Shown piece by piece: positions 32,949 through 56,985 of a DNA stretch of 57,224 bases. Below the pieces are notes generated by a model. It saw only the letters and a list, made by a program, of their open reading frames with translations. It made no database searches and had not been told where the DNA came from. Source of the stretch: an uncultured Lachnospiraceae bacterium (GTDB taxonomy: Bacteria; Bacillota; Clostridia; Lachnospirales; Lachnospiraceae); NCBI GenBank assembly GCA_947629865.1, contig CANRFJ010000020.1:1-57224 (forward strand), given 5' to 3'. How positions within the stretch are numbered: position 1 is the first letter of the stretch; each line of letters starts with the position of its first letter. Made by a program: the position numbers and the translations under genes.

Positions 32949-34736
32949 TTATGCCAGTCTCTCTATCAGATATTCCAGCATTTCGTCCACCACTGTGATA
33001 TAGCGGGAAGACGCGTCGTAGCAGCGCTGGAATTTAATCAGATCAGATAATTCCTCCTCCGAGGAAACGCCCATCACATTCTGGCGCTCATCATCTGCGG
33101 TGGCAACGGTGAGTTCCTGGTTTTCCACAATCCCATTCCACACATTTCCGAGCAGCGCCATATCTGACACCATTGCCTGATAATAATTCATCACCGTATA
33201 GGTCGACATGGAATCGGGAGCCAGTGCGCCGATTTTCTCACTGAACACATCATCAAAAGCCCCCTCCAGCCTGTCATTGGCATAACAATCCTTTTCTCCG
33301 GTGTTGTCGCCGTGTTTTACACCGAGGCGGCATGGATCCTGCATGACGTCGGGATTAATCACCAACTGGCTTATTGTATAAAGGGAATATCCGTCGGACG
33401 GATCCTCCTCATTGTACTTCCACACCTCTATCTCCTGAGGATTTCCCTCATCATCCAGAATATTTATCTTTGTCCTCGTATAGCGCTCGCAGCCCCTTCT
33501 TGAGAAAAGTTCCGCCCCCATCGTCTTGTCGGCGTCATCTCCGATCAGGGCATTTTCCTCGTCCAGTATCCGAATCGTCTCGCCGTCAGCTGTCTGCACT
33601 TCTTTCATCGGGCTGAATACGTCGTTTATCCTCGTAACGATTTCGTGTACCAGTGTGTCCAGCTGACACTGCGCCTTCTGTACCACCGAGGCGCCTGCGC
33701 CCTTATTGTATATCTCCACGTCCTCGCGGTATTTCTTCATGGCCGCATTGTAAGCATTTGTGTCCACGATGCCATCTGCGTTTTTGAAATCATCCTGCTC
33801 CGGCTTCTGAGGCATACTGGTATAGTCGGCGGCATAAGAACCGCGCGCCACGAGCAGTCCCCGGAGAGAGCCCACGTCCGTCTCCTGTTCGGAGGAGTAT
33901 TCCAGACTCTGTCTCACAAAATAATCGCCCCCGGTCGCCCACACCGGCTTCAGCAGCTGGGATTTATTGCTCTCATACTCCGTGGTGAGGAAATACTGAC
34001 TGGTATCGTCGAGAAGAAAACCTCCCTCTGAGTATATGAGCACCGTTCCGTCCTGCTGCTCCTGAACCTCGAAGTTTATAATTCCGGACAGCTGATCCAG
34101 CAGATCGTTCCGGCTGTCCCGGTAGTCGTTGGCTGACTCGCCGGTCGCCTCGTATTTCTGTATCTTTTTATTCAAATCCTTGATTTCTGTCACGATGCTG
34201 TTAATGGTATCGACCTGCTTCTGCACCTCCTGGTTCAGACTGGTCTGATAATCATTCAGATCCTTCTGCAGAACCTGGGCGCGCTCAATAAACTGGCTGG
34301 CCACCGATACCATCTGCTGCTTGTATACGACGTCGTCGCAATTCACGCCAAAGCTCCTCAACATTCCCTCCAGTTCCAGGATGCCGTCCTGAAAGCTCTG
34401 TCCGTCCATTTCTCCCATCATGTTGTATATATCAAACACCGTGTCGCGATTTGCCTCATAGAAATTCTGCCGTCCAAACTGAAGGCGGTACTGGGCGTCC
34501 AGAAAGATGTTGCGCACCTGTCTGGTAGTCACAACCCTTGTTCCGGTTCCCACCTGCAGCACATTGTCATACTGTCCGACCGTATTCTGATAAAAGGAAT
34601 CCGTCACGACGGTCTGCTGCCTTGTGTATCCCTGCGTCTGTGCATTGGCGAGGTTATGTCCTGCCGTATACAGCGACGACTGGGCCGAGCGCAGGCCGGA
34701 CACTCCGGCGTTAAAACTCGTCATCAGATTTCCCAT
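32949..34736 (-). CDS. flgK: Flagellar hook-associated protein FlgK (paralogue 2)
   Basis: A 595-residue FlgK. It begins MGNLMTSFNAGVSGLRSAQS and has HNLANAQTQGYTRQQ; the C-terminus has MGVSSEEELSDLIKFQRCYD followed by the terminal coiled coil. The ATG at 34736 with AGGAG nine bases upstream is preferred to a frame opening at 34811, whose first 25 residues do not fit the family. It differs strongly from paralogue 1 in the middle domains, so this is an old duplication or a specialised second junction protein. Confidence 0.93.
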   Translation of the reverse strand: MGNLMTSFNAGVSGLRSAQSSLYTAGHNLANAQTQGYTRQQTVVTDSFYQNTVGQYDNVLQVGTGTRVVTTRQVRNIFLDAQYRLQFGRQNFYEANRDTVFDIYNMMGEMDGQSFQDGILELEGMLRSFGVNCDDVVYKQQMVSVASQFIERAQVLQKDLNDYQTSLNQEVQKQVDTINSIVTEIKDLNKKIQKYEATGESANDYRDSRNDLLDQLSGIINFEVQEQQDGTVLIYSEGGFLLDDTSQYFLTTEYESNKSQLLKPVWATGGDYFVRQSLEYSSEQETDVGSLRGLLVARGSYAADYTSMPQKPEQDDFKNADGIVDTNAYNAAMKKYREDVEIYNKGAGASVVQKAQCQLDTLVHEIVTRINDVFSPMKEVQTADGETIRILDEENALIGDDADKTMGAELFSRRGCERYTRTKINILDDEGNPQEIEVWKYNEEDPSDGYSLYTISQLVINPDVMQDPCRLGVKHGDNTGEKDCYANDRLEGAFDDVFSEKIGALAPDSMSTYTVMNYYQAMVSDMALLGNVWNGIVENQELTVATADDERQNVMGVSSEEELSDLIKFQRCYDASSRYITVVDEMLEYLIERLA

Positions 34737-48963: not shown

Positions 48964-50133
48964 TTACTCCGTTGTATAGGCGCTATTTTCATTCACCGTC
49001 TGAAGATATTTCTTCTGCAGCTCCAGAGTATACTCCATCGGCTTTTTTATGGTGTTGCTCACCATCTCCGGCGTCTGGTTCATGCTGAACATACGGAAGG
49101 CAACCTCCTTCTTTTCTTCTTCCAGTCCTTCCTTCAGGCCGGATCTACGGCCTTCCTCTAAGCCGGATCTACGGCCTTCCTCTAAGCCGGATCTGCGACC
49201 TTCCTCTAAGCCGGATTTGCGGCCTTCCTCCAAGCCGGATTTGCGGCCTTCCTCCAAGCCGGCAGAATGGCCTTTCTCATAGCACTCCCTCCCGATGCTC
49301 ATCCCAAGTCCTGTCACACTGTCCACCTCCTTCCACAACTCCTCATTCTCCGAGAAGTCGATATACTTTTTTATCTTTGTCAGAAATTCTTCCGTGTGGG
49401 GATACATGATGGCGTGCAGAAACTCCATCATCCCGTTCACTTCTTTCTCCTCCATCTCCCGGAACACACTGTCCCCCAGCCGGATTACCACCAGCGTCAG
49501 CAGATCGTAGTCCGCCCGATTCGGCCGGCAGTTCCCGTAATTCTTCGTGTTATTCATCTCCATCAGGGAGATGCTGAACTTCTCCTCCTCCGGCACGTCG
49601 TCCCGGCAGATCCAGATTGAATAACACTTCTCCAGACAGCCGTAATCCGTCTCGCTCGTCACCACAGACAGCTGCGACGCCAGCTCTCTGGCCAGATAGT
49701 AGAGCCCCCTCTTTTCTACCGGATAGCCCGGACGGTATGTCAGCTGCATCTCCAGGTCGATATGCAGGTTCACCGTAATCTTCCCGCCGGACAGCTCCGG
49801 GTTCACCGCCCGGAACTTTGTGTCAAAAACAGAAAGCTTCTCATCCAGCACCACAAACTCCTTGTCGTCCCCGATAATCCGCGTGGCGGCGCCGGCGTGC
49901 CTGTGTCCCGGCGATACATGCTCACAATCCGTGATGGAGTCCCCCTCGATAAATTCCATGATCTCCGGGTAACTGTAGTCCCGGAACTCGCGCACCACTC
50001 CCTTTAAGATAATGGTGAGTACTTCTTTATTTTTGTATAGTTCCTTGCTGGCACAATCCAGCCCTTCCATCCCCTCTGTCACACGGAGCGAATGGAGGAC
50101 GTCAATGCTGCCAGACAGGTTTTCCTCTGGCAT
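48964..50133 (-). CDS. Rpn/PD-(D/E)xK nuclease-like protein with C-terminal octapeptide repeats
   Basis: A 389-residue protein resembling the Rpn/YhgA-like 'PD-(D/E)xK nuclease family transposase' group. The core has an Asp in FDTKFRAV followed by [10 protein letters not shown], the D...ExQ pattern of this fold. The C-terminal 110 residues are charged and include five GLEEGR(K/R)S repeats encoded by 24-bp tandem units, then [16 protein letters not shown], a tail common in this family. The ATG at 50133 follows GGGAGG. Such genes are often in multiple copies and mobile; the biological role is unsettled. Confidence 0.75.
49136..49262. repeat. 24-bp tandem repeats inside the Rpn-like gene
   Basis: Five full copies (49136-49159, 49160-49183, 49184-49207, 49208-49231, 49232-49255) of a unit like AAGCCGGATTTGCGGCCTTC plus four bases, and a partial sixth. 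The unit is in frame (8 codons), so copy number can vary without a frameshift. There are no spacers, so it is not CRISPR. Confidence 0.95.
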
Positions 50134-50139
50134 CCACAC

Positions 50140-50503
50140 CCTCCCTTTTCATTATAGCTTTTTGGATCTTATTTTACAATATTAATCGCATAAAATCAGA
50201 TGTTTAGAAAATGTAGGATTATCTTAGCACAGAGAGAGAAGAAATACAATTGGAAAGCCTGCACAAAAAAAGAGGTGGGATTTTGTGTGAAAGTGACGAT
50301 TTTTCAGCGCATTACGCCCACAGGGTAGATTTTAAGGCGTAATACGCCAGAATCCTACTGTTTCTGTATTATAATATCCCATCGCGCCCCTTTCACACCA
50401 TCCGCAGCCAAAGCACAACAAAAAAGAGACCAACTTTACAGTCAGTCTCAAATATTTATATGACAGGAAATGGATTTTCCTCTTTAATAACCTTTATGTT
50501 GTC
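50140..50503. other. Intergenic region with paired GC palindromes
   Basis: No convincing gene. It contains the perfect palindrome GGCGTAATACGCC (50336-50348) and a near copy GCGCATTACGCCC (50307-50319), about 29 bp apart, a TATAAT on both strands near 50369-50375, and the terminator at 50420-50449. The palindromes could be operators or RNA hairpins in the leader of the Rpn-like gene. Confidence 0.5.
50420..50449 (-). terminator. Terminator of the polysaccharide cluster
   Basis: Minus-strand GAGACTGACT / AGTTGGTCTC pair over ten positions (two wobbles) around GTAA, followed by TTTTTT. It lies 54 bp after the acyltransferase stop and marks the end of the leftward cluster. Confidence 0.88.
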
Positions 50504-51595
50504 TCATCTTCTGCTCCAAAATCTTCTTTTCAGTTTTCCATACACTTCCGCAAATAAAAGCGAAATGACAAACACGATTACAGAAATGATAACAACAACT
50601 ACCGCCTCAATTGGTGAATTGCCAAACAGCCTGTCCCCCATGAGAATGAAAATCACATCTATTACTCCTGCATGTACCAGATAGATTAAAAATGTGCAGC
50701 CGGACAATCCGGAAAAATCTCGTTTAGTTTTCATAACGGAAAATCCGGCAAAAACCAGACAGGCGGCTATAACCTCAATCGGCGCCAGGGGGCCATAGGA
50801 AAATGGATTTTCCCATAGTTTGGCTGTATCAACCGGCAGCCCTTCCAAACCACGTAAATAATTGATATATGCCAGAACTGTATTTATCAAAAAGCCACTG
50901 ACAATCAACAGAACTGCTTTTCCATTGTCTTTATGGGAATCGCTCCATCTTCTGATCTTATATCCCATTATAAAATAACTCAGAAAGTAAAAAGCATAAC
51001 CAATGTCCCACATTAATTTGTGTTCACTTGTTACATAACCCAGACTTGCAAGTACAAGAAAAATCAGCGTAATATTGCCATATAGTTCTACCCCCCCCCC
51101 CGAAAAATCGGCGTTGAGCCGTATCACAAATGGTACAACCAAATATAAGCCTATAAGCACGGACAAATACCACAGATGCCCCGACGGACGCCCCTGCAGC
51201 AGATCCTTGAAAATGAAAAACAAGGAAGCCAAAAAGGTATCTGTACTGTCTATATGTAAAACAAATACACCCATAACTAATTTCGCCACTCGATACATTG
51301 TATATAAAAGGAAGAACACTGCGCCGGTAATGCCTATATTACGAATTGATTTTTTATAAAAGAAGTTATAGTCCGCATTCCTTTCATCTGCTAGTAGAAA
51401 AGCTCCTGAAAGCATCAAAAAACAGGGAACAGCAAAGCGAACTATATGGTTAATCAACATAACCGGGAGACTACAGTCCGTAGGAATTCCTTCTTCATTA
51501 CACACTAAAAAGCCACCCGAAACATGCAGCATTATCACTGCAAAAGCGCTTATGATCCGAAGCAGATCATAGTTGGATTCTCTTACTTTGAGCAT
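50504..51595 (-). CDS. Acyltransferase 3 family protein with phase-variable poly-G tract
   Basis: Membrane O-acyltransferase of 363 residues with about ten helices. It opens ESNYDLLRIISAFAVIMLHVSG, with the conserved His, and has HIVRFAVPCFLMLSGAFLL and GHLWYLSVLIGLYL. It probably acetylates a surface glycan made by the adjacent cluster. An 11-G run (plus 51091-51101) encodes SGGGV near residue 167 and is in frame, so this copy is intact. A change of tract length by other than three would truncate it at mid-protein. Last gene of the cluster, before a strong terminator. Confidence 0.88.
   Translation of the reverse strand: MLKVRESNYDLLRIISAFAVIMLHVSGGFLVCNEEGIPTDCSLPVMLINHIVRFAVPCFLMLSGAFLLADERNADYNFFYKKSIRNIGITGAVFFLLYTMYRVAKLVMGVFVLHIDSTDTFLASLFFIFKDLLQGRPSGHLWYLSVLIGLYLVVPFVIRLNADFSGGGVELYGNITLIFLVLASLGYVTSEHKLMWDIGYAFYFLSYFIMGYKIRRWSDSHKDNGKAVLLIVSGFLINTVLAYINYLRGLEGLPVDTAKLWENPFSYGPLAPIEVIAACLVFAGFSVMKTKRDFSGLSGCTFLIYLVHAGVIDVIFILMGDRLFGNSPIEAVVVVIISVIVFVISLLFAEVYGKLKRRFWSRR
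51091..51101. repeat. Poly-C/G tract (11) in the acyltransferase gene
   Basis: Eleven consecutive Cs on the plus strand (Gs in the coding strand). The frame is open with 11, and would also be open with 8 or 14. It is a typical simple-sequence contingency tract. Confidence 0.9.
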
Positions 51596-52780: not shown

Positions 52781-53627
52781 TTATCCGTGAAGCGTAATCG
52801 TTCCGCTTCCTCCGGTCATATAGAACGTGTCTCCGACAATCATATCGCCCATATCGCTGACCATAAATGTCGCAAGCGCGGCAATTTCCGAAGGCATGGC
52901 ATAACGCTTTGCCGGCGTGTTTGGATGATAAATAGTGTCACCTTCGTTTTTACCGAGCATGGGCGTGGCTGTCGGACCGGGCGCTATTGCATTAACGACA
53001 ATTCCGTATGGCAGGAGCTTGTCCGCAGTACCAAGAGTAAGCCCCCTGACTGCCCACTTTGACATCTGATAGGGCGTCCATGCAGGGCGAAGAGCCGATG
53101 AAGAAGTCACATTCAGAATATGACCTTTAATCCGGTTTTCAATCATATATTTTGCTACTGCCTGAGACATGAAAAACGTGCCCTTTGCGTTGATATCCAT
53201 GATGCTGTTGTACTCCTGCTCGGACATATCCAAAAAGTCCGAATGAGCGACGACGCCAGCAGAATTAACAAGGATATCGATCCTGTTTTCCGGGAACATA
53301 GCAGCGGCGGTCTTGATTTTCTCAGGCATAGATCTGACATCTGTTACATCAATCACTATGTATGAGAGCGCTACCCCCCCCCGCATTGATTTTTTGACAG
53401 AGAGTTTTCAGCTTCGTTTCATTTGTTCCCGCGATGATTACCTTTGCTCCGCTCTTTATAAAACTTTCTGCCATAGCAAGGCCTATTCCGCCACTGCCGC
53501 CGGTGATAAGCGCGACTTTTCCTTTCAAAAGTTCCGGAGCGTTTATCGGGGCGGGAATGGGGATTTTCTTTTCTTCTTTGAAAAGCATTACCGTTGATTT
53601 AACTATCTTCTTTAATCTGCTAAGCAT
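52781..53627 (-). pseudogene. Short-chain dehydrogenase, frameshifted at a poly-G tract (phase OFF)
   Basis: One SDR gene read in two frames. The N-terminal part (53627 to about 53349) has ITGGSGGIGLAMAESF, the NAD(P) motif. The C-terminal part (about 53386 to 52781) has DILVNSAGVV, the active-site Ser region LNVTSSSALRP and YQMSK. They meet at nine Gs (53374-53382). With 8 or 11 Gs the frame would join as NAGGVALSYIVIDV and give about 281 residues, a normal SDR length. With 9 the product stops after about 92 residues. It sits between flippase and epimerase genes. A reversible phase-variable state is more likely than decay because both halves are otherwise intact; an assembly error in the tract is possible. 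Confidence 0.85.
53374..53382. repeat. Poly-C/G tract (9) in the SDR gene
   Basis: Nine Cs on the plus strand, exactly at the point where the SDR reading frame breaks. In-frame lengths would be 8 or 11. Confidence 0.9.
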
Positions 53628-53640
53628 ATTCATCCTCCCA

Positions 53641-55145: not shown

Positions 55146-56912
55146 TCACTTCTTTTTTACACTGTTGATTATTCCTTTTATCTTCTGAGTTCCTTTCTCT
55201 CCAATCATATTTTTTGCCACTGCTTTTGCCGCTCCCATAGGTGTTACGCCAATATGATACAAAATATTCAGTGCCTCGCTCTCATCCCTTGAATCTGTAA
55301 AAACCTCAAAAATAATAGGTTTTTCTGACAGATTCTTATCAAGGAAATGGTCTATATGATTAAGATACTCCTGTTTATCAGAAGCACTTATATACTCAAA
55401 GCCAAGATCCTGTGAATAATGCTTTACCAACGCCCTGGACTGACATCCAAAATGGCCGGCTGCCGCCATATAAGCATCTGCATCTTCTCCAAAACGTTCC
55501 GCCGGATGATTAAAATTACGAAACTCTGTTCCACGGCCATTATTCACAATCATCAAACGAATATTATTAGGCATATGTCGGTTCCCCATTGCATTCATAT
55601 CATAGAAAAACGCCAGATCACCAATAATCCCTAAAAATAATTTTTCTGGAGAGGCCAATGCAGCCCCCAGTAAAGCAGAAACCAAACCATCAATTCCAAA
55701 TCCTCCTGTATTGGAATAGATTTCAACTTCTTTCTCATGACTGACTTCAAACAGGCTCCAGCTCCGCAAAGTATTAAGAATGCCCAAATGAAGTTCACAC
55801 TTGTCTGGAAGGCGGTTTCTTGTATTATACGCCATCCACGGATTTGAAAAAGGAAGTTCTGGTATCTTTTCTTCCAATTCAATACATGCCTGATGAAATG
55901 TATTGTAATATGATACGCAAGATACATTTTCCATGCTTTGCATCAAAGCTCTTTTAAAAAATTCAGTCTCTGACATTTCAAATACAGCAGTAAGCCTACG
56001 ATATGTATCTCTTATTTCCCCATCAGGATGTACTCGCCAAATTTCTTTTGGCTTCGCCAAAAAGCCAGCTCCAAACCCGGACACAGTGCCGATGTGAATC
56101 ATAATATCCGGTTTCATATATCTTGACGCTGCACCTGTCTGGTTAGCCAATAATGCTGCATAAACACCATATTTTCCTCTGTAATTACTAATATGCTCGC
56201 AGGAAACAACCGCATTAAATTTTTCGCAAAATTGATCCACCAGTTCCGTCAATTCTTTCGACCACCTGCTATGGGCGCCAATATGGATAAGGCACGTTTT
56301 CCCGACTAAAGACGGCATCTCATCTTCAAAGGTATAACGCTGGATTCCTTTTACCGATGGAAGTTCTTTAACTGAAAAATCTTTACTATAGGTAGTCGTA
56401 AGATTAATGTGAACCGGCTCGCCTCCCTTTCTTTTCATTTCCAGCAATACACTATTGATAGCAACTCCGGCTGCCCATTCTTCTTCATCATCGTGAACGG
56501 TGCCTACTTGGATACTCTTTTTAACCATGTCATTCATCGGATTGGATCGGTCAATCACCTGCTCCATGAGCTGGCCCACTCTGCCCGTATATTGGGTAGA
56601 AGTGATTGCTACAATCGGAAGATTGCTATAATAAGCCTCTGTCAGCCCAGGTGCATAATTCCTTGATGCGGTCGCCCCTGTGCAGGACAACGCTACCGGT
56701 TCCCCGCTCTCACGCGCAAGTCCGCAGGCCATATATGCTGCCGACCGTTCATCAACACAAGAATAAATCTCAAAGTAAGGATCATGCTGTAAACTACCAA
56801 CCAGACATACATTAGTAGCTCCTGGACTTACAACTACCTTTTTTACACCATGAAATTTCATAAGCGCAATCAGTATTAATGTACTTTTCTCTGATGTGTA
56901 GTATTTCTCCAT
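55146..56912 (-). CDS. MenD-like thiamine-diphosphate enzyme of the polysaccharide cluster
   Basis: A 588-residue ThDP enzyme. The PYR domain has VVSPGATNVCLV, the catalytic Glu in VDERSAAYMA and SCTGATASRNYAPG. The PP domain has GDLAFFYDMNAMGN followed by MIVNNGRGTEF, a GD-L...N motif closer to MenD than to acetolactate synthase. No menaquinone genes are near; flippase, SDR, epimerase and acyltransferase are. It may therefore build an unusual sugar or keto-acid-derived glycan residue. The start at 56912 has AGGCGG upstream; a GTG at 56921 is the alternative. Confidence 0.85.
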   Translation of the reverse strand: MEKYYTSEKSTLILIALMKFHGVKKVVVSPGATNVCLVGSLQHDPYFEIYSCVDERSAAYMACGLARESGEPVALSCTGATASRNYAPGLTEAYYSNLPIVAITSTQYTGRVGQLMEQVIDRSNPMNDMVKKSIQVGTVHDDEEEWAAGVAINSVLLEMKRKGGEPVHINLTTTYSKDFSVKELPSVKGIQRYTFEDEMPSLVGKTCLIHIGAHSRWSKELTELVDQFCEKFNAVVSCEHISNYRGKYGVYAALLANQTGAASRYMKPDIMIHIGTVSGFGAGFLAKPKEIWRVHPDGEIRDTYRRLTAVFEMSETEFFKRALMQSMENVSCVSYYNTFHQACIELEEKIPELPFSNPWMAYNTRNRLPDKCELHLGILNTLRSWSLFEVSHEKEVEIYSNTGGFGIDGLVSALLGAALASPEKLFLGIIGDLAFFYDMNAMGNRHMPNNIRLMIVNNGRGTEFRNFNHPAERFGEDADAYMAAAGHFGCQSRALVKHYSQDLGFEYISASDKQEYLNHIDHFLDKNLSEKPIIFEVFTDSRDESEALNILYHIGVTPMGAAKAVAKNMIGEKGTQKIKGIINSVKKK

Positions 56913-56985
56913 AAAAATCACCGCCTATCTTTCATATTACTCTTTAATGCTATTCTGCTTCATTTTAACAATCTGACATTATACT

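Follow-up and report, generated by a model that had tools for sequence, protein, structure and literature searches.

The short-chain dehydrogenase (SDR) gene in the analyzed sequence is probably, with an estimated probability of about 0.8, a phase-variable gene of surface-glycan modification that would be switched by slipped-strand mispairing in a G tract and would represent one locus of a multi-gene poly-G repertoire. The window, i.e., the whole stretch of 57,224 nucleotides that was analyzed, belongs to the 2.64-Mb assembly (51-contig draft, hereafter G000) of an uncultured Lachnospiraceae bacterium, and the likely habitat of this host is the gut.

A minus-strand run of nine Gs sits exactly at the junction of two differently framed halves of the gene (Table 1). 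The upstream ORF, which carries the start of the gene and the TGGSGGIG motif, crosses the nine Gs and then stops at TGA (53351–53349), and the remaining SDR motifs NSAG, SSS, and YQMSK are located in the downstream ORF (motifs read by eye). Both halves exceeded the cut-off of the adh_short profile (43.3 and 117.6 bits at a cut-off of 26.6) and matched its consecutive positions, 1–52 and 51–190, which places them in the SDR oxidoreductase families PF00106/PF13561. The interval 53349..53386 highlighted by the initial annotation extends from the stop of the upstream half to the ATG of the downstream half. Its description of two SDR halves in different frames meeting at nine Gs was borne out by the ORFs and the profile matches, and frame analysis upheld its statement that a tract of 8 or 11 Gs would join both halves in one frame. 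As counted by eye, the 8-G length matches the residue number of the intact ortholog from genome G021 across the junction. The tract length thus decides the reading frame of a gene that is otherwise sound, as in contingency genes. Translation from the ATG just before the tract would give a product without the nucleotide-binding motif.

Table 1. Coordinates of the predicted operon and its G tracts in the window
Feature	Position	Strand	Remark
MenD-like thiamine-diphosphate (TPP) enzyme, 591 aa, intact	55146..56921	-	homologous to the TPP-enzyme genes next to the G222 SDR homolog
Polysaccharide flippase-like protein (Polysacc_synt), 481 aa	53641..55086	-	profile match
Upstream open SDR half, 94 aa, nucleotide-binding motif	53349..53633	-	ends 8 codons beyond the tract
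G9 tract in the SDR gene, proposed slippage site	53374..53382	-	SDR out of frame in this assembly
Downstream open SDR half, 201 aa, catalytic part	52781..53386	-	ATG directly before the tract
NAD-dependent epimerase/dehydratase-like protein, 367 aa	51633..52736	-	profile match
Acyl_transf_3 (PF01757) membrane acyltransferase, 363 aa	50504..51595	-	profile match
G11 tract in the acyltransferase gene	51091..51101	-	in frame in this assembly
Terminator-like hairpin downstream of the final operon gene	50426..50449	-	consensus match only; 6 sites found vs 5.2 expected

The SDR ortholog of G021, a genome of the same genus, is 282 aa long, open throughout, and free of G runs of at least 7. Compared with this ortholog, identity was 78% and dN/dS 0.18 over the 82 codons of the upstream half, and 88% and 0.085 over the 195 codons of the downstream half; these ratios indicate purifying selection on both halves. 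The claim that nothing else in the gene is damaged agrees with these values and with the open frames. When 397 family genomes were searched with the ortholog, five had a match at E ≤1e-55, the window's own and four others, and the homologs in the latter, with identities of 66%, 48%, 50%, and 50%, were all open. The G tract within the SDR gene itself was absent from the homologs found in other genomes. Since intact orthologs lack it, the tract represents a local gain. Such a gain could also mean that a random insertion of one base into a G run turned the SDR gene into an early pseudogene rather than a switch; with one genome per species in the comparison set, no same-species copies with different tract lengths were found, and no length variation was seen within one strain or species. 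This frozen loss is nevertheless improbable, given the lack of other damage and the low dN/dS in both halves, the presence in one operon of two long tracts, one of them in frame, and the finding, detailed below, that mod genes of two genera are hit at the same codon despite saturated synonymous sites. The SDR operon had no match among plasmids (near mode), and no relative of the SDR gene was found among viral contigs. Two neighboring SDR genes with an in-frame G9 in each were observed at locus L086 (G067, contig C16), and locus L037 has SDR genes similar to them but without long G runs.

The minus-strand gene order is MenD-like TPP enzyme, flippase, SDR, epimerase-like protein, and acyltransferase, followed by the terminator-like hairpin. 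Due to the short intergenic gaps, these five genes were treated as an operon, the start of which is beyond the contig end. The TPP enzyme was named MenD-like and not MenD, since its TIGR00173 (MenD) score of 181 bits is below the equivalog cut-off of 244.2. Judging by the gene neighborhood and enzyme families, the operon probably serves the synthesis and decoration of a surface polysaccharide. The glycan step proposed in the initial annotation holds to this extent, as a prediction from the same neighborhood and families, and its chemistry remains conjectural. The G11 run of the acyltransferase gene is located 2.3 kb from the SDR tract in the same apparent operon. In genome G222 the SDR homolog (66% identity) is intact, but one of the two tandem TPP-enzyme genes upstream of it is split by G7. 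Compared with the intact tandem copy, the first part of the split gene (residues 1–194) is 62% identical and the second (residues 197–549) 27%; with such a low identity of the second part, decay as well as switching is possible for this gene. A separate observation concerns L037, a locus of an uncultured Lachnospiraceae MAG with a SerS 79% identical to that of the window: its acyltransferase (L037:8001-8903) is 67% identical to the window's, contains no ORF longer than 136 aa in the match, and, lacking G runs of at least 6, was broken by something else.

The SDR run by itself is unremarkable under a dinucleotide model, which predicts 4.14 G8 matches in the window against 6 seen, a number reached in 30 of 100 shuffles. 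On the other hand, Markov models of order 2–4 predict 0.08–0.20 C runs of at least 9 in the window, while two, 9 and 11 long, were seen. The G000 assembly contains 22 G runs of at least 7: 15 of length 7, three of 8, three of 9, and one of 11. Of the four runs of at least 9, three lie in genes (the SDR gene, the acyltransferase gene, and a mod gene located on contig C26) and the fourth is intergenic, on contig C1. Geometric decay estimated from lengths 7 to 8 predicts 0.75 such runs (P 0.007, rising to 0.04 or 0.13 if a slower decay is assumed); the location of two of the four within 2.3 kb has a P of about 0.01. A repeat length above background, another property of contingency genes, is therefore evident as a genome-wide excess, although the SDR G9 alone does not go beyond the dinucleotide model. 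According to a mechanical frame rule, two of three genic runs of at least 9 in G000 are out of frame compared with one of 15 genic runs of 7–8 (hypergeometric P 0.056), a weak contrast in this genome by itself.

An assembly or base-calling error, with a real SDR tract of 8 and an intact gene, would be in line with the draft state of the genome and with the poly-G runs at contig ends of relatives, which reach G43 and resemble read artefacts. We consider it quite improbable: the SDR and acyltransferase runs are mid-contig, the 15 genic runs of 7–8 in G000 include a single break, split genes show lengths of 7 to 13 and both out-of-frame classes, and split genes also occur in single-contig genomes (G178, loci L188 and L217). 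The contig-end runs themselves, observed in L043, L048, L077, L081, L083, L194, L215, L241, and L258, look like assembly or read artefacts and should be left out of tract surveys.

The third genic tract of G000, a G9 at positions 33296–33304 of C26, lies in a type III methyltransferase gene. The pieces flanking it match the PADLOC profile PDLC03634 (type III methyltransferase) at 2–32 and 36–123, and among PDB sequences EcoP15I Mod was matched by the second piece. The gene continues on contig C21, where foreign sequence precedes DPPYNTG, the point at which the reading is taken up again; C26 departs from the family just before this point. The G9 split together with the interruption at the DPPY codons makes this mod gene doubly inactive in the assembly, so it differs from a phasevarion in which an otherwise complete gene is switched by a repeat. 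Insertion of a multi-copy element as the cause of the break was rejected, as the sequence at the end of C26 had neither a second copy in the assembly nor an Rfam match. The mod gene of G222, which represents another genus, has an out-of-frame G9 at the same place and codon, and its pieces match PDLC03634 at 2–33 and 36–616. This gene (locus L141) is whole downstream, i.e., here an otherwise complete mod gene is split by a repeat. The G000 and G222 pieces share 79% (34 aa) and 94% (95 aa; 93.7%) amino acid identity, and their synonymous sites are saturated. At a homologous site deep in a mod gene, two species of the window's genus differ: G032 has G7 and an open frame, while G021 has G8 and a split frame, with a downstream dN/dS of 0.027. 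A third mod site, near the 3' end, is a G7 that splits the gene in G021. Mod tracts are not general: 299 family genomes gave 21 mod matches, located in 18 of them, and among these matches G runs of at least 7 were limited to two G222 loci and one G066 locus (G7, in frame). The mod gene matched 102 plasmid records (distant mode), none covering 80%, and six phage records, all without tract variants, and none of its 17 viral contig loci had a G run of at least 7.

Two further mod sequences were noted. Locus L146 (G222, contig C7) contains another mod N-terminus with G9 at the same place, and the masked bases after it leave the frame not judgeable. The mod N-part of viral contig locus L157 is 93% identical, lacks the tract, and ceases to match the mod family at the codon where the G000 gene does so too; the site at the DPPY codons may be a recurrent insertion point.

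HG9 was present in 21 of 39 genomes of the genus and HG10 in 47 of 120 family genomes with at least 90% completeness. A total of 89 distinct runs of at least 10 were examined, derived from the loci of the HG10 search and 60 further regions, part of those listed; four were at locus or contig ends. The split genes included acyltransferases of G032, with halves on consecutive profile positions (3–64 and 67–322), and of G160 (2–251 and 270–325), as well as an arylsulfotransferase of G028, with the N domain before the G run and the main domain after it. Two GHKL kinases were split in G177 (profile positions 4–47 and 60–101 in one, 4–48 and 61–101 in the other). At the G177 loci L202, L203, and L204, the breaks of both kinases fall within one and the same region of the ATPase domain, and two related exported-looking ORFs are broken close to the start. 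Genes with in-frame G runs included a G210 acyltransferase, a G016 N6 methylase that has HsdM_N, and two G067 SDR genes. In the mechanical test of the collected loci, 12 of 23 genic runs of at least 9 were out of frame versus 33 of 209 runs of 5–6 (P 2e-4), and in a separate family set without the window's own genome, 17 of 28 runs of at least 10 versus 25 of 152 (P 3e-6); these loci were chosen for tracts or homology, and the statistics ignore relatedness. The rule marks about 16% of short runs as out of frame, which means that part of the split calls must be spurious.

The 26 genes chosen for listing cover all three frame states: 14 have one base in excess and six have two, giving 20 split genes with G runs of 7 to 13, and six are in frame. 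Homopolymers can provoke slippage, and slippage at the G run during transcription or translation could yield some full-length SDR, so that the tract would tune rather than switch the gene. Although 14 of the 20 split genes require the same one-base shift, 14 against six is not a significant difference (P 0.12), both shifts are required among the split genes, and the tract is not conserved in the SDR orthologs, which makes recoding very unlikely. The need for both shifts also led us to reject a systematic +1 error or a programmed shift as the general cause.

The phase-variation reading of the initial annotation is very probably right, being supported by the second tract in the operon, the mod G9 in two genera, the mod G7/G8 site, and the family-wide excess. 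Tracts that gain and lose bases, that are found repeatedly in contingency-type gene classes, and outside which the gene stays under selection are most simply explained by slipped-strand mispairing in the G run. Replication slippage would shift the SDR tract length by a base, and within one clone the gene would be in frame in cells with 8 or 11 Gs and out of frame in those with 9 or 10. An OFF cell would make an SDR protein that ends just past the nucleotide-binding part and, having lost the catalytic part, is null. The SDR may reduce a keto intermediate, and the acyltransferase may add an acyl group; with its own switch on each gene, the operon could produce up to four surface types. In the same family, mod genes, further acyltransferases, transferases, and sensor kinases appear to be equipped with G runs as well. 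The benefit is conjectural and could be bet-hedging against phage or immune attack, or mucus binding. Slippage in living cells, its reversibility, the surface chemistry, and this benefit are all inferred. More broadly, it seems moderately probable that Lachnospiraceae, which are abundant in the gut and not pathogenic, carry multi-locus poly-G phasomes comprising surface-glycan enzymes (SDR, TPP enzyme, AT3 acyltransferases, and glycosyltransferases), type III mod genes as candidate phasevarions, and GHKL sensor kinases, and that identical sites are affected repeatedly in different genera.

Intragenic G tracts of about 8–12 switch the reading frame of surface-glycan and restriction-modification genes in Campylobacter jejuni and Neisseria. 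The loci described here resemble these contingency genes in tract length, proposed frame switching, targets, and the presence of several tracts per genome. Unlike them, they belong to a probable gut Firmicute family and are fewer per genome in the window's genus. ModS of Streptococcus suis is a phase-variable type III mod (phasevarion) with GAGCA repeats, which likewise lie near the 5' end of the gene and put it out of frame in some genomes (PMC6265453). The repeat found here is, in contrast, mononucleotide G, and the G000 copy is further interrupted downstream. Clostridioides difficile and Bacteroides are, like the probable host of the window, gut anaerobes with random ON/OFF states, but a 2025 review attributes their phase variation to invertible promoters, i.e., DNA inversion by recombinases, whereas tract slippage is proposed here (PMC11868660). 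The same review regards multi-locus phase-variable species as still relatively uncommon and asks why they are seemingly confined to pathogens (PMC11868660).

No report of homopolymer phase variation in Lachnospiraceae was found in the open-access literature searched, which is consistent with the earlier remark that such variation is rarely described in gut Clostridia. The poly-G switching mechanism is already known, best from pathogens; the proposed multi-gene poly-G repertoire in Lachnospiraceae goes beyond the initial annotation and was absent from the open-access literature searched. If this commensal family does carry many genes switched in this way, the set of glycans and methylases available to a strain would be misrepresented by single assemblies of gut Clostridia, and phage and immune selection in the gut could be followed with the tracts as simple amplicon markers.

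Several minor observations concern repeats and their surroundings. In post hoc comparisons of the genus loci and the window, the context C[G]nTA accompanied nine of 41 runs of at least 9 versus three of 292 runs of 5–7 (P 5e-7), and TA as the next bases followed 12 of 41 versus 19 of 292 (P 6e-5). The fourth long run of G000, a G9 at C1:96610-96618 (L001), lies between sigma-factor-like and AlbA-like ORFs, as judged by eye, and could tune a promoter. At 48964–50139 (minus strand) the window encodes a PDDEXK_2-like protein with an in-frame repeat of about eight residues (GLEEGRRS, recognized by eye) near the C-terminus.
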